From an uncultured Bacteroidales bacterium (GTDB lineage Bacteria > Bacteroidota > Bacteroidia > Bacteroidales > UBA932): a stretch of DNA of 64,000 nucleotides. Shown here piece by piece: positions 14,552 through 26,136 of this stretch; position 1 is the stretch's first letter; the number at the start of each line of letters is the position of its first letter. The notes under the pieces were generated by a model. It saw only the letters and a program-made list of their open reading frames with translations. It was not told the DNA's origin and searched no databases. The position numbers and the translations under genes are program-made. The DNA lies in the NCBI GenBank assembly GCA_944322925.1, contig CALUQM010000001.1, forward strand, positions 84,192 to 148,191, read 5' to 3'.

Positions 14552-15898
14552 CTATTCGGCAAGGTTTCTGGCGATTTCCTCGTCGGACAGGGTGTAGTCG
14601 ATAAGGTCGCCTGCAAGGTACTGGTCGTAGGAGGACATGTCGACAAGTCCGTGTCCGGAAAGATTGAACAGAATGACCTTGCTTTCTCCGCTTTCCCTGC
14701 ATTTGAGGGCTTCGTTGACCGTTGCTGCAATGGCATGGCAGGATTCCGGAGCCGGAATGATGCCCTCTGCCTTCGCAAACAGGCAGCCGGCCTTGAATGA
14801 CTCGAGCTGTCTGATGTCTACTGCTTCCATCAGCCCGTCTTTCAGAAGCTGCGATACGATTACTCCTGCCCCATGGTATCTCAGACCGCCTGCATGGATA
14901 TTGGCCGGCTTGAACTTGTGTCCGAGAGTGAACATCGGAAGTAGAGGGGTATATCCTGTCTCGTCTCCGAAATCGTACTCGAACTTGCCTTTGGTCAGTT
15001 TCGGACAGGATGCCGGCTCTGCAGCAATGAATCTCGTTTTCTTTCCCTCGAGGATATTGTGCCTCAGGAAAGGAAATGCGATGCCTCCGAAATTGGACCC
15101 TCCCCCGAAGCATGCGATAACCATGTCAGGGTATTCTCCTGCCATCTCCATCTGTTTTTCCGCTTCGAGTCCGATGACCGTCTGGTGCAGTGAAACGTGG
15201 CTCAGCACCGATCCTAAAGTGTATTTGCAGTTAGGAGTCATCTGCGCAAGCTCCACTGCCTCGGAAATCGCCGTGCCGAGAGAGCCCTGATGGTTCGGAT
15301 CCCTTGTCAGGATATCCTTGCCGGCCCTCGTCGTCATGGAAGGGGACGGGATGACCTGGGCCCCGAAAACCTGCATGATGCTGCGCCTGTAAGGCTTCTG
15401 CTCATAGCTGATCTTTACCTGATATACGGCAGCTTCGAGACCGAAGAGTTTTGCCGCATACGACAGGGCTGCACCCCATTGTCCGGCTCCGGTTTCCGTG
15501 GTGACATTCGTGACGCCTTCCTGTTTGCAGTAATAGGCCTGGGCAAGGGCGGAATTGAGCTTGTGCGACCCTACGGGGCTTACACTTTCGTTCTTGAAAT
15601 ATATATGGGCAGGTGTATCCAGCGCTTTTTCGAGTCCGTATGCACGGACGAGGGGAGTAGAGCGGTAGTAGGTATACATTTCCCTTACCTTGTCAGGAAT
15701 GTCGATCCATCGGTCAGTCTGATTCAACTCTTGTCTGCTGAGTTCTTCAGCGAACAGGGGATAGAGATCCTCAGGCTTCAGAGGTTGTCTTGTGGCAGGG
15801 TTCAGAAGCGGCATGGGCTTGTTGACCATGTCTGCCTGGATGTTGTACCATTGTTTCGGCAGATCCGCTTCATTCAGGAAAAATCTTTTCTGTTTCAT
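14552..15898 (-). CDS. trpB: Tryptophan synthase beta chain, TrpB2 type
   Basis: 448 aa, longer than standard TrpB (about 400 aa) and with the TrpB2 N-terminus (NEADLPKQWYNIQADM). The PLP lysine lies in SPVGSHKLNSALAQAY, and the phosphate-binding glycine loop in CFGGGSNFGG. TrpB2 condenses indole with serine and can work without TrpA, often as an indole-salvage enzyme. No other trp gene is adjacent. Upstream lies a 6-bp inverted repeat (15937-15952) and, before it, the sdhC terminator, so trpB probably has its own promoter, although no clear TAnnTTTG box is seen. Confidence 0.93.
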   Translation of the reverse strand: MKQKRFFLNEADLPKQWYNIQADMVNKPMPLLNPATRQPLKPEDLYPLFAEELSRQELNQTDRWIDIPDKVREMYTYYRSTPLVRAYGLEKALDTPAHIYFKNESVSPVGSHKLNSALAQAYYCKQEGVTNVTTETGAGQWGAALSYAAKLFGLEAAVYQVKISYEQKPYRRSIMQVFGAQVIPSPSMTTRAGKDILTRDPNHQGSLGTAISEAVELAQMTPNCKYTLGSVLSHVSLHQTVIGLEAEKQMEMAGEYPDMVIACFGGGSNFGGIAFPFLRHNILEGKKTRFIAAEPASCPKLTKGKFEYDFGDETGYTPLLPMFTLGHKFKPANIHAGGLRYHGAGVIVSQLLKDGLMEAVDIRQLESFKAGCLFAKAEGIIPAPESCHAIAATVNEALKCRESGESKVILFNLSGHGLVDMSSYDQYLAGDLIDYTLSDEEIARNLAE

Positions 15899-17557: not shown

Positions 17558-18121
17558 ATGATAGACAAAGCTAAAGAAATCTGCTCCGCAGCCAAGACAA
17601 AGATGTCCGATGCTGTGAAATTCCTTGAAGAGGATGTCAAGACTTACAGGGTAGGCAAGGCCAATCCTATGGTTTTCAATAATGTTGTCGTGGATTACTA
17701 CGGCACTCCCACACCGGTTCCGCAGGTGGCGTCGATAACCACTCCGGACGCGAAGACCCTTGTCATCCAGCCGTGGGAGAAGAAAATGATTCCTGTCATC
17801 GAAAAGGCGATAATGGACGCTAATATAGGCCTGACCCCTCAGAACAACGGGGAGAGCATCAGATGTTCGGTTCCGCCGCTTACCGAGGACAGAAGGAAAG
17901 AACTCATAAAGAAGGTCAAGTCTGCAGGTGAGAATGCCAAGGTCGTTGTCCGCAATGCCCGCAGGGATGCCATCGACGCCTTGAAAAAGGCCCAGAAGGA
18001 CGGACTTCCGGAAGATGCCGAAAAGGATTTCGAACAGAATGTGCAGAAGGATACGGATTCCTTTGTCAAGAAAGTCGACGAGATCGTTTCCGCAAAGGAG
18101 AAGGAGATTCTTACTGTCTGA
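17558..18121 (+). CDS. frr: Ribosome recycling factor
   Basis: 187 aa. It releases post-termination ribosomes together with EF-G. Matches to the family: KTYRVGKANPMVFNNVVVDYYGTPTPVPQVA near residues 28-58, IQPWEKKM, and the long C-terminal helix ending in KKVDEIVSAKEKEIL. Standard length. It lies 27 bp after pyrH, presumably in the same transcript. Confidence 0.97.
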   Translation: MIDKAKEICSAAKTKMSDAVKFLEEDVKTYRVGKANPMVFNNVVVDYYGTPTPVPQVASITTPDAKTLVIQPWEKKMIPVIEKAIMDANIGLTPQNNGESIRCSVPPLTEDRRKELIKKVKSAGENAKVVVRNARRDAIDALKKAQKDGLPEDAEKDFEQNVQKDTDSFVKKVDEIVSAKEKEILTV

Positions 18122-18177
18122 GACCTGATTCGCTGCAGAAAAACCTGCATGACAGGTGCGGAATTGAAAAATTTTAG

Positions 18178-18185
18178 TATATTTG
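18178..18185 (+). promoter_or_regulatory. -7 box ahead of the Phe/Tyr leader peptide
   Basis: TATATTTG matches TAnnTTTG and lies 19 bp before the leader ATG at 18205. A TTG (18164-18166) is present but too close to be a standard -33 box. A transcript starting just after it would carry the whole attenuator. Confidence 0.5.
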
Positions 18186-18204
18186 TATCCTAAGTACGGA
18201 AAAC

Positions 18205-18267
18205 ATGAACACACGATTTAGCGCATACGGTTATTTTTATTTCTATTTCTTTAAAAGGAGGAAATAG
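18205..18267 (+). CDS. Phe/Tyr-rich attenuator leader peptide of the pheA operon
   Basis: A 20-codon reading frame from ATG 18205 to TAG 18265-18267. Nine of the 20 residues are aromatic: five Phe and four Tyr, with the run YGYFYFYFF at residues 8-16. It sits 104 bp upstream of pheA, at the head of the operon that makes exactly these two amino acids, and is followed by a strong terminator with an alternative pairing partner. This is the classic design of a ribosome-mediated attenuator: slow translation at Phe/Tyr codons would favour antitermination. The last codons AAA AGG AGG also form a Shine-Dalgarno-like stretch at 18253-18261, probably incidental. Translation is inferred, not shown. Confidence 0.85.
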   Translation: MNTRFSAYGYFYFYFFKRRK

Positions 18268-18314
18268 CCGGACGCGCGTATCGTATATAATATACAGTAG
18301 AATGAGCTGTCCGG
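18268..18314 (+). promoter_or_regulatory. Antiterminator pairing of the pheA attenuator
   Basis: CCGGAC at 18268-18273, directly after the leader stop codon, is perfectly complementary to GTCCGG at 18309-18314 inside the left arm of the terminator. A small internal hairpin GTATA-TAA-TATAC lies between. A ribosome finishing at the stop codon would cover 18268-18273 and leave the terminator free to form; one stalled on Phe/Tyr codons would not. A third CCGGAC lies after the terminator at 18338-18343. Confidence 0.65.
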
Positions 18315-18335
18315 GTGCGGATGGCTCTTTTTTTT
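18304..18335 (+). terminator. Attenuator terminator upstream of pheA
   Basis: A 10-bp stem GAGCTGTCCG/CGGATGGCTC (two G-T wobbles) with a GGTG loop is followed by eight T (18328-18335). It ends 35 bp before the pheA start. Confidence 0.88.
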
Positions 18336-18370
18336 ATCCGGACATACCGGCAAATTTATTTTGAAAGATT

Positions 18371-19222
18371 ATGGACCAGACAGAAAATATTGCGAGAAGG
18401 GTGGCGATACAGGGCTATTCGGGCTGCTTCCACGAGCAGGCTGCCAGGATTTTCTATGAAAAATTCGACGGAAGCACTCCGGAGATAGTGGAATGCGCCA
18501 CTTTCGACGACTTGTACGGTGCAATGGATGCAGGCAAGGCTGATGCCGCCATCATGGCGATAGAGAACACGGTTTCAGGCGGTCTTCTTCCCAACTTCGA
18601 ACTTCTCCGCAAGTTCAATATCAAGATCAAGGGCGAAGTTTTCCTCAGAATCCAGCAGAATCTGATGGCTTTGCCGGGACAGAAGATAGAAGACATAAAA
18701 GAGGTCAGGACGCATTACATGGCGATCAATCAGACTCGCCCGTTTTTCCAGTCCTGCCCGTGGATAAGACTCGTGGAATCGGAAGATACGGCGAAAAGTG
18801 CGGCTGACATTGCCCGTGAGAACCTGCATGGAGTGGGGGCGGTGGCGTCCTTGCTGGCGGCCGACCTGTACGGGCTCGAAGTCCTCAGGGAAAGTATCGA
18901 GACATACAAGCAGAATTTCACGAGATTCCTGATTCTCGATGACAGGATCACGATACCGAAGGAGAAGGTGAACAAGGTTTCGCTCTGTTTCACGCTCCCG
19001 CACAAGGCCGGCTCGCTGGCCCAGGTACTTACCATCCTGTCCTTTTACGACATGAATCTCACGAGGATACAGTCCCTTCCGATACCGGGCAAGACATGGC
19101 AGTATTTTTTCTATGCCGATATCAAGTTCGACAATTATCTCCGTTACAGCCAGGCCATATCTGCGGTCAGGCCGCTGATGGAAGACCTCAATATCCTCGG
19201 AGAATACGAGGCTGCAGTATGA
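18371..19222 (+). CDS. pheA: Prephenate dehydratase
   Basis: 283 aa, monofunctional (no N-terminal chorismate mutase). It converts prephenate to phenylpyruvate in phenylalanine synthesis. The catalytic domain (about residues 10-190) starts with VAIQGYSGCFHEQAA and holds the TRF motif in KQNFTRFLIL; a C-terminal ACT domain (about 200-275, SLCFTLPHKAGSLAQVLTIL) is the usual site of allosteric phenylalanine binding. First structural gene after the attenuator, and 23 bp before the aminotransferase. Confidence 0.95.
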   Translation: MDQTENIARRVAIQGYSGCFHEQAARIFYEKFDGSTPEIVECATFDDLYGAMDAGKADAAIMAIENTVSGGLLPNFELLRKFNIKIKGEVFLRIQQNLMALPGQKIEDIKEVRTHYMAINQTRPFFQSCPWIRLVESEDTAKSAADIARENLHGVGAVASLLAADLYGLEVLRESIETYKQNFTRFLILDDRITIPKEKVNKVSLCFTLPHKAGSLAQVLTILSFYDMNLTRIQSLPIPGKTWQYFFYADIKFDNYLRYSQAISAVRPLMEDLNILGEYEAAV

Positions 19223-19245: not shown

Positions 19246-20487
19246 ATGATAATAAGACCAGCAAAACGGACCGGGTCGGTCCAGGAATATTATTTCTCCA
19301 GAAAGCTCAAGGAAATAGACCGGATGAATGCCGGAAGGAAGGCGGCCGGGCAGGACGGCATAATAAATCTCGGCATAGGGGCCCCGGACGGAATGCCCCC
19401 CGCAGAGGCCGTGAAAGCTCTGGCGGAAGCGGCTTCCCAGCCGGGAAACCATGCTTATCAGAGCTATACCGGCATCCCGCAGTTGAGACAGGCATTTGCC
19501 GACTGGTATGCGAGATACTACGGGGTCGGACTCGATCCGGCAAAGGAAATCCAGCCTCTGGTCGGGTCGAAGGAAGGAATCCTGCTCATTTCCCTCGCTT
19601 TTCTCGACAAGGGAGACAAGGTCCTCGTTCCTGATCCGGGCTATCCTACCTATTCGTCTGCGACGGCGCTTGCGGAAGCGGAGCTGGTGCCTTATGACCT
19701 GATGCCGGACAACGGATGGCAGCCGGACTTCGATGCGCTGGAAAAAATGGACCTGACCGGGGTAAAGATAATGTGGACCAACTACCCGAACATGCCGACG
19801 GGCGCCGCAGCAACCGTTGAGCTGTATTCGCGTCTTGCCGATTTCGGGAGAAGGCACGGTATCCTCGTCTGCAATGACAATCCGTACAGTTTCATACTCA
19901 ACGACAATCCGCTTTCCATTCTTTCCGTCCCGGGCGCGAAGGAATGCTGTCTGGAACTCAACTCCCTGAGCAAGGCCCACAACATGTCGGGATGGCGCAT
20001 AGGGATGGTGGCTGCAGATGCGGACATTATCGCACAGATCCTGAAAGTGAAGAGCCAGATGGACTCGGGCATGTTCAAGCCTCTCCAGCTTGCTGCAATA
20101 GCCGCTCTGGGGCAGGGACCGGAATGGTTTGGGGCGTTGAATGAAGAATACAGGCGGCGCAGGGTGCTTGCCGGGCGTATTTTCGACATTATCGGGGCGG
20201 ATTACGACAGGAACAGCAGCGGAATGTTCCTTTGGGGAAGGATCGCCCCGGGAAACAGGTTTCTGGACGCTGCGGAAAGCGGACTTTCGTCAGGCGAACA
20301 GGTTTCCGACAGGATACTCTACGGTGCCGGCGTATTCATTACTCCCGGGTTCATTTTCGGACGGAACGGAAGAGACTATGTCAGGATTTCGCTTTGCGCC
20401 AAACCGGAAATCCTGGAAGAATCCGCCCGGAAAATATCGGAACTGATATCGGAAACCGGCGGTAGCAGCCGGACTGCAAATTCATGA
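19246..20487 (+). CDS. Class I/II PLP aminotransferase, probable aromatic aminotransferase
   Basis: 413 aa, fold type I. The PLP lysine lies in LNSLSKAHNMSGWRIGM, and MWTNYPNMPTGAAA and VCNDNPYSF are the usual cofactor contacts. The sequence resembles the LL-diaminopimelate/aspartate aminotransferase branch. Its place between pheA and tyrA implies that it transaminates phenylpyruvate and 4-hydroxyphenylpyruvate (or prephenate); this is inferred from context. Its stop overlaps the tyrA start by 4 bp (ATGA at 20484-20487), so the two are translationally coupled. Confidence 0.9.
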   Translation: MIIRPAKRTGSVQEYYFSRKLKEIDRMNAGRKAAGQDGIINLGIGAPDGMPPAEAVKALAEAASQPGNHAYQSYTGIPQLRQAFADWYARYYGVGLDPAKEIQPLVGSKEGILLISLAFLDKGDKVLVPDPGYPTYSSATALAEAELVPYDLMPDNGWQPDFDALEKMDLTGVKIMWTNYPNMPTGAAATVELYSRLADFGRRHGILVCNDNPYSFILNDNPLSILSVPGAKECCLELNSLSKAHNMSGWRIGMVAADADIIAQILKVKSQMDSGMFKPLQLAAIAALGQGPEWFGALNEEYRRRRVLAGRIFDIIGADYDRNSSGMFLWGRIAPGNRFLDAAESGLSSGEQVSDRILYGAGVFITPGFIFGRNGRDYVRISLCAKPEILEESARKISELISETGGSSRTANS

Positions 20488-21359
20488 AGAGTATGAAAAC
20501 AGGAATCATAGGACTGGGCCTTATCGGAGGTTCGATGGCGATAGATCTCAAAAGGAGAGGCTTCGCGGATGAAATAATAGGGGTGGAGGCGGACAGCGTC
20601 AATGCGGCTGCCGCCTTGAAAATCGGTCTGGCGGACAGGATCATGTCACTGGAAGAATGCGTCAGAGCAAGCGACCTGATAATACTGGCAGTCCCTGTAG
20701 GGGCCGCAGTGAAAATGCTGCCTGCCGTGCTGGATATTTTCGAGAATGAAATGACTTCGGCAGGAGTATGCAGCAAGACGGTCATCGATGTCTGCTCCAC
20801 GAAGGAACAGCTTTCCAGGACTGCGCATTATCATCCGATGCGCTCCCGTTACGTGGCCACGCACCCGATGGCGGGTACGGAATATTCCGGTCCGTGGGCA
20901 GCAATGCCCGGTCTTTTCGACGGCCGGGCCTGCATAATCTGCAATCAGGAAGAGTCCGCCCCTGCCTCGGTGCGCCTCGTGGAAAAAATGTACGATTGCC
21001 TGAACATGAGGCCGATATACATGAATGCTTCGAGCCATGACGTACATACGGCCTACGTGTCGCATATCTCCCATATCACTTCATTTGCGCTGGCTCTTAC
21101 CGTGCTCGACAAGGAAAAGAACGAGAAGCATATTTTCGATCTCGCCTCGGGAGGATTTTCTTCGACCGTAAGGCTTGCAAAGAGCAACGCGGACATGTGG
21201 GTGCCGATTTTTTCCCAGAACCGCGAGAATCTTCTGAAAGTCATTGACACTTATATAGAAAAAATCGGAAGTTTCCGCAAGGCGATAGACGAATTCGACG
21301 AAAAAGGCATCAGGACCCTCATCGAGGATGCCAACAGGATAAAAAGAATAATCAGATAA
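20484..21359 (+). CDS. tyrA: Prephenate dehydrogenase
   Basis: 291 aa. It begins with an NAD(P)-binding Rossmann motif (TGIIGLGLIGGSMA) and carries family segments ATHPMAGTEYSGP and HDVHTAYVSHISHI, whose histidines are expected in the active site. It oxidatively decarboxylates prephenate to 4-hydroxyphenylpyruvate for tyrosine. No fused ACT or mutase domain; the mutase is in the next gene, 13 bp downstream. Confidence 0.94.
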   Translation: MKSMKTGIIGLGLIGGSMAIDLKRRGFADEIIGVEADSVNAAAALKIGLADRIMSLEECVRASDLIILAVPVGAAVKMLPAVLDIFENEMTSAGVCSKTVIDVCSTKEQLSRTAHYHPMRSRYVATHPMAGTEYSGPWAAMPGLFDGRACIICNQEESAPASVRLVEKMYDCLNMRPIYMNASSHDVHTAYVSHISHITSFALALTVLDKEKNEKHIFDLASGGFSSTVRLAKSNADMWVPIFSQNRENLLKVIDTYIEKIGSFRKAIDEFDEKGIRTLIEDANRIKRIIR

Positions 21360-21372
21360 AACGAACTGCAAT

Positions 21373-22494
21373 ATGGAAAAAAGACTCGACATTATTCCTT
21401 TGAAGGAATGGAACCTGTTTAATCTGTTCAATGAAAAGCGCCCGTTTCTCATTGCCGGGCCGTGCAGCGCCGAATCCGAAATCCAGATCATGGAAACTGC
21501 ACGCGGTCTGAAGGCTATGGGTATCAGCGTGTTCCGTGCGGGAATATGGAAGCCCCGCACTCATCCCAACACTTTCGAGGGCGTGGGCACGCCGGGACTT
21601 AAATGGATGCAGAGGGTGAAAAATGAACTCGGAATGAAGATCTGCACCGAAGTCGCAAGCGAAAAGCATATTTTCGACTGCATCAAGTTCGGAGTAGACA
21701 TGGTGTGGATAGGGGCGAGGACGACCGCCAATCCTTTCCTTGTACAGGAAATCGCCGACGCCCTGAAGGATACGGACATTCCGGTCCTTGTCAAGAATCC
21801 CGTAAACCCCGATATCGATCTGTGGATAGGTGCGCTGGAGCGGCTCAACCAGGCCGGTGTCAAAAAGCTCGGTGTCATACACCGCGGATTCTCCACTTCT
21901 GAAAAAATCCCGTACAGGAACCGGCCGGACTGGCAGATAGCCATCGAACTCAGGTCGCGATATCCGGAACTTCCGTTCTTCTGCGACCCGAGCCACATGG
22001 GCGGAGCCAAGAATTATCTTCAGGAAATATCCCAGACTGCCATGGACCTGGGACTCGACGGGCTTATGATAGAGTCCCACTGCGATCCTACATGTGCGTT
22101 GAGCGATGCCAAACAGCAGCTTACACCGAAAGAACTCGACGAGATGATCCAGAAACTGATTGTCCGGGAAGCAGACTCCGACAGCCCGGAATACAGGGAG
22201 AATATCCATCAGCTGAGAGCCAAGATAGACGTGATAGACGACAGCCTGATATACCTGCTCAGCTCGAGGATGGATATCAGCCGGCAGATAGGCGAATACA
22301 AGAAGAGCAACAACATCGCCATTCTCCAGACCGGCAGATGGGATTCCCTTCTTGCCAAGGTCATAGAAAAGGGAATGGCTCAGGGATTGTCGGAAAAGTT
22401 CATCTCTACTGTATTCAATGCCATACACGAAGCCTCGGTGCAGGTGCAGAACGAGATTCTTACACCAGATTCTTCAGTAGATTCCGGAAAATAA
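21373..22494 (+). CDS. Bifunctional DAHP synthase / chorismate mutase
   Basis: 373 aa fusion. Residues about 1-265 are a KDPG-like type I DAHP synthase (IAGPCSAES, FRAGIWKPRT, CTEVAS, WIGARTTANPF, VKNPVNPD, FFCDPSHMGG), catalysing the first step of the shikimate pathway from PEP and erythrose 4-phosphate. Residues about 278-370 are an AroQ-type helical chorismate mutase (IHQLRAKIDVIDDSLIYLLSSRM). This fusion is usual in Bacteroidota and lets prephenate-pathway flux inhibit the first step. It supplies the AroB-AroC cluster at 50564-54649. Its 3' end overlaps the convergent lpxK by 35 bp. Confidence 0.95.
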   Translation: MEKRLDIIPLKEWNLFNLFNEKRPFLIAGPCSAESEIQIMETARGLKAMGISVFRAGIWKPRTHPNTFEGVGTPGLKWMQRVKNELGMKICTEVASEKHIFDCIKFGVDMVWIGARTTANPFLVQEIADALKDTDIPVLVKNPVNPDIDLWIGALERLNQAGVKKLGVIHRGFSTSEKIPYRNRPDWQIAIELRSRYPELPFFCDPSHMGGAKNYLQEISQTAMDLGLDGLMIESHCDPTCALSDAKQQLTPKELDEMIQKLIVREADSDSPEYRENIHQLRAKIDVIDDSLIYLLSSRMDISRQIGEYKKSNNIAILQTGRWDSLLAKVIEKGMAQGLSEKFISTVFNAIHEASVQVQNEILTPDSSVDSGK

Positions 22495-26066: not shown

Positions 26067-26122
26067 GGCTTTTCATTTTAGCATTTTTTTGTGTGGTTGC
26101 AAGCAGCCAAATCTCTCCACAT
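26067..26122 (-). promoter_or_regulatory. SAM-II riboswitch in the metK leader
   Basis: Read on the minus strand, TGTGG (26121-26117) pairs with CCACA (26097-26093) as stem P1. GGCT, just after GATTT, pairs with AGCC at 26070-26067 to make the second stem of an H-type pseudoknot. The conserved linkers are present: GATTT after P1, TTGCAA before the P1 3' strand, and GCTAAAA near the 3' end. These correspond one by one to the SAM-II consensus. It starts a few bases after the predicted transcription start and ends 130 nt before metK. SAM-II is known mainly from Alphaproteobacteria. Pairing was judged by eye. Confidence 0.82.
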
Positions 26123-26136
26123 TCCGTTTCGGGCTG

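Follow-up and report, generated by a model that had tools for sequence, protein, structure and literature searches.

A probable leader-peptide attenuator for phenylalanine and tyrosine before the pheA operon of a Bacteroidales bacterium, and its spread in Bacteroidia

Between frr (PF01765; end 18121) and pheA (PF00800) of an uncultured Bacteroidales bacterium, an intergenic stretch of 249 bases (18122-18370) holds a short reading frame rich in phenylalanine and tyrosine codons together with an intrinsic terminator, and the question raised by this locus is whether translation of the frame governs the terminator and thereby the genes behind it. The window, as the term is used here, is the whole stretch of DNA that was analysed, 64,000 nucleotides in length. 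Classical attenuation is the mechanism of the phe, trp and his leaders, and a first-pass annotation of the window had read the site as a leader-peptide attenuator, a reading now supported by conserved leaders, conserved terminators and compensatory pairings. Judged from these sequence comparisons, the site is very probably a classical ribosome-mediated transcription attenuator, which appears to read phenylalanine and tyrosine together, to be widespread in Bacteroidia and to be of a kind without an Rfam match.

Leader, terminator and promoter at the locus

The leader has five Phe and four Tyr in 20 codons, and both the composition and the coordinates given for it in the first-pass annotation proved exact (Table 1). 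Frames with at least nine Phe plus Tyr arise in 9 of 5000 dinucleotide shuffles of the 249-base intergenic region, and frames with at least seven in 112 of 5000; a single Phe/Tyr peptide by chance is unlikely but not impossible, and it is conservation that decides. A search of the whole genome with the leader peptide returned one match, the window site. Leader codons 4-5 read CGATTT (18214-18219, Arg-Phe) and form part of strand 1. The final codons contain AGGAGG at 18256-18261, a perfect Shine-Dalgarno-like hexamer that also occurs in loci L025 and L028.

The terminator is built from the arms GAGCTGTCCG (18304) and CGGATGGCTC (18318), which fold into a stem of 10 pairs, 6 of them G-C, with two G-U pairs among the remainder; the 10-bp stem (18304-18327) and the eight T had been described correctly. 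So had the hexamer CCGGAC directly past the leader (18268) as the exact complement of GTCCGG in the left arm of the terminator (18309). A second CCGGAC at 18338-18343, just 3' of the U run, could also pair with the GTCCGG of the terminator. The ATG of pheA (18371) stands 35 bases past the T run, the distance given earlier for the operon, and 103 bases past the leader stop, with the terminator in between, and domain matches bear out the operon content of pheA, aminotransferase, tyrA and DAHP synthase. Near the aromatic operon, on the minus strand at 14552-15898, lies a PLP-dependent enzyme with a PALP domain (PF00291), which we take to be of the tryptophan synthase beta type.

Upstream of the leader, TATATTTG (18178-18185) matches the Bacteroidota sigma-A -7 box and predicts a transcription start near 18190, ahead of the leader; a start downstream of 18268 is what the first-pass annotation had held would speak against its reading. 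In Bacteroidota, the -7 box occupies positions -12 to -5, according to the accessible text of PMC9723704. The window has 19 bases from the box to the ATG and a predicted 5' UTR of about 15 bases. Among the close relatives described below, the box stands 8 bases 5' of the first in-frame ATG in 41 of 70 leaders (31 directly; for the other 10 the listed distance is 11 bases and refers to the second ATG of an adjacent pair), for a predicted UTR of about 4 bases, and 3 of the 70 have no box within 60 bases 5' of the ATG. Across the class, the box is found at a spacer of 4-25 in only 18 of 57 leaders, against 62 of 2136 control positions, a count made on an earlier class set in which 13 minus-strand loci of L083-L111 were taken on the other side. 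A near-leaderless start was considered as a general rule and rejected on the spacing in the window, the three leaders lacking a box and the class count. In Bacteroides thetaiotaomicron, 5' UTRs of fewer than 10 bases make up only about 3.7% (PMC7366714, accessible part), and initiation in Bacteroidota is described in the accessible text of PMC9723704 as not relying on Shine-Dalgarno sites.

Table 1. Features of the putative attenuator and of the operon behind it, in window coordinates
Feature	Position	Strand	Remarks
-7 box TATATTTG	18178-18185	+	matches Bacteroidota sigma-A -7 box TAnnTTTG; predicted transcription start about 18190
Leader peptide ORF	18205-18267	+	MNTRFSAYGYFYFYFFKRRK; ATG 18205, 20 sense codons, stop TAG 18265-18267
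Strand 1	18213-18247	+	inside leader codons; predicted to pair with strand 2 if no ribosome lies on top (minimum-energy fold of 18190-18337 and duplex tests)
Sensing stretch, aromatic codon run YGYFYFYFF	18226-18252	+	TTC, TAT and TAC frame-specific in homologues
Strand 2	18253-18284	+	core CCGGAC 18268-18273, the antiterminator arm
Strand 3	18304-18314	+	terminator left arm; GTCCGG 18309-18314, exact complement of CCGGAC
Strand 4	18318-18327	+	terminator right arm
T8 run	18328-18335	+	end of intrinsic terminator
pheA, prephenate dehydratase	18371-19222	+	PF00800
Class I/II aminotransferase	19246-20487	+	PF00155
tyrA, prephenate dehydrogenase	20484-21359	+	PF02153, PF20463
DAHP synthase fused to chorismate mutase	21373-22494	+	PF00793, PF01817

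Conservation among close relatives and across Bacteroidia

The close relatives, referred to here as the own group, are the best 80 of 330 relatives from a PheA scan of genome contigs; their PheA proteins are 72-91% identical to that of the window, and they are assigned to Bacteroidales or Bacteroidia, and to Cryptobacteroides where a genus is named. With a leader defined as CGNTTY after an in-frame ATG and at least five Phe/Tyr, the leader is kept in 69 of the 80 loci, which together with the copy in the window makes 70. All 70 carry the motif as exactly CGATTT, identical even at silent positions across the 50 leaders that were aligned, and past each of these leaders lies a terminator below -8 kcal/mol. 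The peptide types include RFSAYGYFYFYF, GTYRFSSFGFYFFYFQKR, NDFRFSFYFYYYSQKRV and DFRFNAFGFYYFYY. Of the 69 leader loci, 62 show the full order pheA-aminotransferase-tyrA-DAHP synthase, as do 9 of the 11 loci that lack a leader by this definition; the remaining loci show part of it.

The 11 leaderless loci bear on the explanation that the terminator merely ends the frr transcript and that the reading frame arose by chance in T-rich intergenic DNA. With frr ending at 18121 a terminator would be useful there, and a frame as rich as the one in the window does turn up in 9 of 5000 shuffles. Moreover, frr adjoins pheA in nine of the leaderless loci (2-85 bases between match ends in eight, 213 in L048), and the terminator hairpin is retained in six of the 11 (L023, L032, L043, L048, L053 and L059), with frr next door in all six, so that the hairpin may serve some separate purpose there. 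Five of these six hairpin-only loci have the CTGTCCGG arm of the group, and in L032 and L059 the -7 box lies almost directly 5' of the hairpin, as though the leader had been excised between promoter and hairpin; by their sequences, these six are loci in which the leader is lost and the hairpin retained. Neither leader nor terminator was found 5' of pheA in L074, L077, L079, L080 and L081, and in L074, L079 and L081 pheA follows immediately after frr. Against this explanation, leader and terminator occur before pheA far more often than in shuffled sequence in other genera, where the pairing is compensatory, and none of the 29 class loci L083-L111 yielded frr within up to about 1.5 kb 5' of pheA. 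A terminator serving frr alone is accordingly rated very improbable.

The comparison was carried beyond the own group with a criterion based on the peptide, namely a frame of 13-32 codons with at least seven Phe plus Tyr, situated 60-400 bases from the end of the analysed stretch, which itself extends about 40 to 100 bases into the PheA match. For the class Bacteroidia, PheA was found in 107 of 395 genomes, and 89 upstream regions besides the own one were analysed, consisting of 29 loci and 60 of the other 77 genomes (106 besides the own), the 17 omitted being mostly the weakest PheA matches. For the order, 108 of 247 genomes yielded PheA, 99 of them new, from which 29 loci and, by rank, 40 of the other 70 were taken. 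A qualifying frame is present in 65 of the 89 class regions, compared with 77 of 1780 dinucleotide shuffles, and in 57 of the 69 further Bacteroidales regions, compared with 89 of 1380 shuffles. The remaining 24 class and 12 order regions have none; one of the order regions, L172, is from the genus of the window. As the Phe/Tyr-richest frame is always picked, a few picks, such as those in L245 and L255, may be chance, and four regions below the cut (L099, L100, L103 and L171) look real by eye. A strong terminator accompanies 64 of the 65 leaders from the class, where 62 of 650 shuffled tails have one, and 54 of 56 leaders from the order. The first-pass annotation had proposed a comparison of the pheA upstream regions of relatives, and in these the aromatic codons are conserved and the alternate pairing is kept, with compensatory change between genera.

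Among the other classes of the phylum, 127 genomes matched and 24 were analysed by rank, and only 3 of the 24 regions pass the leader criterion. The PheA proteins of these three genomes are 42-48% identical to that of the window, like those of many class members, and 20 others reach 33-38%; the twenty-fourth, G731 (PheA 42%), exceeds the length limit, and by eye has a 39-codon frame with RFGFFGYFYFYF before PheA. Because a class-like PheA is found in the leader carriers outside the class and a more distant one in the 20 others, the leader seems to accompany the Bacteroidia type of PheA. The four genomes concerned (L201, L216, L219 and L285, the last with its leader recognized by eye and the others by the criterion) lie outside the class and have a Bacteroidia-like PheA, which suggests that gene and leader were transferred together.

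Codon choice, competing pairings and the predicted switch

In the 65 class leaders, the counts in frames 0, 1 and 2 are 83, 4 and 13 for TTC, 123, 7 and 35 for TAC, 140, 19 and 20 for TAT, and 234, 161 and 130 for TTT; picking frames for their Phe/Tyr content itself favours frame 0, and the shuffle counts given above serve as the control. Both synonymous codons are favoured in one frame, which points to selection for Phe and Tyr residues and not for an RNA motif. At least two Phe and at least two Tyr are present in 68 of 70 leaders of the own group and in 113 of the 118 from elsewhere, and we infer a specificity for Phe plus Tyr from the content of the codons and of the genes. Tryptophan occurs in 23 of the 65 class leaders. 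It accounts for 24 of 1467 codons, not far from the 16 each of His and Met, and TGG is counted 24, 3 and 18 times in the three frames; these counts do not demonstrate enrichment, and Trp sensing was set aside. The 1247 leader residues of the own group contain no Trp. Sensing of Trp in some lineages is possible.

The pairing of the antiterminator (2:3) was assessed in 118 leaders with a strong terminator (64 from the class, 54 from the order), with the stretch from the last aromatic codon to the terminator matched against its left arm. Uninterrupted Watson-Crick runs reach a mean maximum length of 6.57 in the own combination, of 4.28 when that stretch is shuffled and of 4.83 when partners are swapped between genomes (own versus swapped, p 1.1e-16, shared ancestry not being corrected for). 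A core of at least 6 pairs is present in 88 of the 118 leaders and lacking in 30; the 88 use 57 distinct core sequences, of which many overlap, for example GCCGGG and GCCGGGACT, so that the number of independent core solutions is below 57. For the 64 class leaders, the 2:3 duplex energy is -14.9 for own, -7.6 for shuffled and -9.9 for swapped partners (p 2.5e-11, shared ancestry not corrected for), and 51 of 64 beat their own shuffles at p <0.05. The pairing of strands 1 and 2 had not been noticed in the first-pass annotation; its duplex energy in the same leaders is -17.9 for own, -11.9 for shuffled and -13.0 for swapped partners (p 8.5e-9, likewise without correction for shared ancestry), with 36 of 64 beating their own shuffles at p <0.05.

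Antiterminator (2:3) and terminator (3:4) are mutually exclusive, and the compensatory change that preserves this choice is found between genera. It is weaker among the close relatives, where strands 2 and 3 are nearly invariant, and the covariation therefore comes mainly from other genera. The own group was judged by the alignment-free swapped-partner test and not pair by pair on the alignment of 50 of its 70 leaders, because this alignment (A1) is misaligned between subgroups around the stop codon. In the own group, 43 of 70 leaders beat their own shuffles in 2:3 at p <0.05, and the 1:2 energy is -23.4 for own versus -19.1 for swapped partners (p 3.3e-11, shared ancestry not corrected for). 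In the 88 leaders with a core, strand 2 begins 7-17 bases past the aromatic run (5th to 95th percentile, median 12), and about as many bases are covered by a ribosome ahead of its A site. Strand 2 lies mostly inside the last codons in the class, its median start being 15 bases ahead of the point where the stop codon ends, which would explain recurring peptide tails such as SKSRD and AGVCM; the window, unlike most class leaders, has its strand 2 core just past the stop.

Such a terminator might also be controlled, with no role for translation, by a structured RNA with Phe or Tyr as its ligand or by a T-box, the ligand of which is uncharged tRNA; this would be in keeping with the conserved helices and with CGATTT and GCTGTCCGG, which show little or no variation in the own group. 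Yet no Rfam family, the T-box model included, matches the leader site at the gathering score, and between genera the nucleotides change while the one-frame Phe/Tyr codons stay and both synonymous codons are used. A ligand pocket would not preserve one-frame codons amid changing nucleotides, and we give control by such an RNA a very small chance.

How a translating ribosome would act on the strands was modelled by masking the bases up to 13 past the start of the A-site codon, an assumed footprint, and folding the remainder. With any aromatic codon from Phe5 to Phe16 of the window leader in the A site, strand 3 is predicted to be sequestered at 0.84 while strand 4 has yet to be transcribed; for a ribosome at the stop the value is 0.40 and the terminator has a probability of 0.99. 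At an aromatic stall the equilibrium probability of the terminator is still 0.48 to 0.71, and antitermination must therefore rely on 2:3 pairing first. In the 118 other leaders, the modelled sequestration is 0.77 at the best aromatic stall versus 0.17 at the stop, and the difference exceeds 0.3 in 112 of 118, compared with 93 of 236 controls in which strand 2 was shuffled. For the own group, 69 leaders were modelled (L027 was omitted, a distal hairpin having been picked there); the difference passes 0.3 in 44 of them, and in 32 the sequestration of strand 3 remains above 0.5 even at the stop. When no ribosome is present, strand 3 is sequestered at 0.51 in the window and at a mean of 0.64 elsewhere, and termination is not clearly predicted. 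The model would thus yield the classical switch, in which a stall at product codons frees strand 2 and a ribosome at the stop covers it, with a less sharp outcome in the own group.

Alternatively, what is sensed could be free Phe or Tyr and not charged tRNA, the sensor being the nascent peptide inside the ribosome tunnel, in the manner of TnaC and Trp. The early Arg-Phe of the leader and the fairly constant peptide of the own group would fit such a sensor, but the order and number of residues vary freely between genera, where mainly the Phe/Tyr content is kept, the unvarying codons of the own group belong to strand 1, where their very nucleotides do not vary, and such sensing would act on a biosynthetic operon with the wrong sign unless it were inverted; the probability of sensing in the tunnel is accordingly very low. 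Still less can be said for a leader that is mainly an upstream reading frame that serves to couple translation or to recruit ribosomes to pheA, for although leader frames in Bacteroidetes peak 11-14 bases before genes (PMC4833913, accessible text), the stop here lies 103 bases before pheA and a terminator intervenes, as it does in most other leaders.

Proposed mechanism, reach and known systems

As a classical attenuator, the locus would work as follows. RNA polymerase would start near 18190 and a ribosome would load on the leader at once. With both Phe-tRNA and Tyr-tRNA charged, the ribosome would reach the stop and cover strand 2 with its CCGGAC, strands 3 and 4 would pair, and transcription would end at the U run before pheA. 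With either charged tRNA scarce, the ribosome would pause at a Phe or Tyr codon, covering strand 1 and leaving strand 2 free to pair with strand 3 before strand 4 exists; the terminator would then fail, and pheA, the aminotransferase, tyrA and the DAHP synthase/chorismate mutase would be transcribed. Translation of the leader, the pause and the response to Phe and Tyr are predicted in the same sense as the throttling of entry into the shikimate pathway that the last gene implies. Outside the own group, a shared control of DAHP synthase is supported only in part, the gene having been seen near pheA in 10 of 29 class loci (with about 1.5 kb downstream covered). The leader is a candidate for joint control of Phe and Tyr synthesis and of shikimate pathway entry in Bacteroidia.

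A broader reading, which we offer tentatively and do not quite expect to hold in full, is that a single attenuator ancestral to Bacteroidia is the main aromatic feedback device of the class, reading charged Phe-tRNA and Tyr-tRNA (and Trp-tRNA where the leader has Trp codons) without reliance on Shine-Dalgarno sites and near-leaderless in some lineages. Both Phe-tRNA and Tyr-tRNA would be read in it because DAHP synthase is in the operon. If this were true, transcription and translation would be closely coupled at the 5' end of the mRNA across Bacteroidia. How tightly the ribosomes of Bacteroidota follow RNA polymerase is, to our knowledge, an open question; a ribosome-dependent terminator kept across the class argues that the ribosome must load and keep pace with the polymerase within the first hundred bases, and such coupling is possible as a general property of Bacteroidia. 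The leader offers a ready reporter for ribosome-polymerase coupling in Bacteroidota.

The element is of a kind for which Rfam has no matching family. At the gathering threshold, the sole Rfam match in the 64,000-nucleotide window is SAM-II at 26068-26126 on the minus strand (59.9 bits versus 44). Bacteroid-trp RNA is a Trp leader attenuator. It is likewise a candidate cis-regulatory RNA of Bacteroidetes (RF01692; PMC2864571, accessible text), and RF01692 has no match at the site nor anywhere else in the genome of the window.

Two earlier reports touch on the site itself, neither of them named in the first-pass annotation. A database scan of 2005 lists a putative attenuator before pheA>hisHb>aroA-aroQ>tyrA in Bacteroides thetaiotaomicron (PMC1173090, Table 7), which shares its operon and bacterial order with the window; the accessible part of that report does not describe a leader peptide, a specificity or a comparison. 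In 2021, a structured 5' element was reported before pheA in Flavobacterium psychrophilum and found to be conserved in other Flavobacteriaceae, in a study that found strong clues for leader-peptide attenuation 5' of amino acid operons (PMC9723704). Like the site in the window, this element, which is transcribed, is a conserved region before pheA with no Rfam hit, and the accessible text does not give its peptide, Phe/Tyr content, pairing or spread to other families. The kind of element is therefore known and the site half seen, since both reports flag it, as far as their accessible parts go, without a Phe/Tyr peptide. In the open-licence literature, no title among the matches listed concerns a Phe/Tyr leader of Bacteroidota, and subscription papers (e.g., Lopatovskaya 2010) may cover it. 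The present analysis contributes the peptide and the two amino acids it points to, the pairing together with its compensatory change, the spacing and the class-wide spread, the last going beyond the first-pass annotation as well.

The closest counterparts lie in E. coli, where pheL-pheA and pheM-pheST have phe leader attenuators and the tyrosine genes are controlled by TyrR instead. The element described here resembles these phe leaders in its short peptide rich in the regulated amino acid, in four strands with mutually exclusive pairings and in its intrinsic terminator, and it shares with pheL a pheA as first gene. It differs from them in that Phe and Tyr codons alternate in one leader, which heads pheA, tyrA and a DAHP synthase together.
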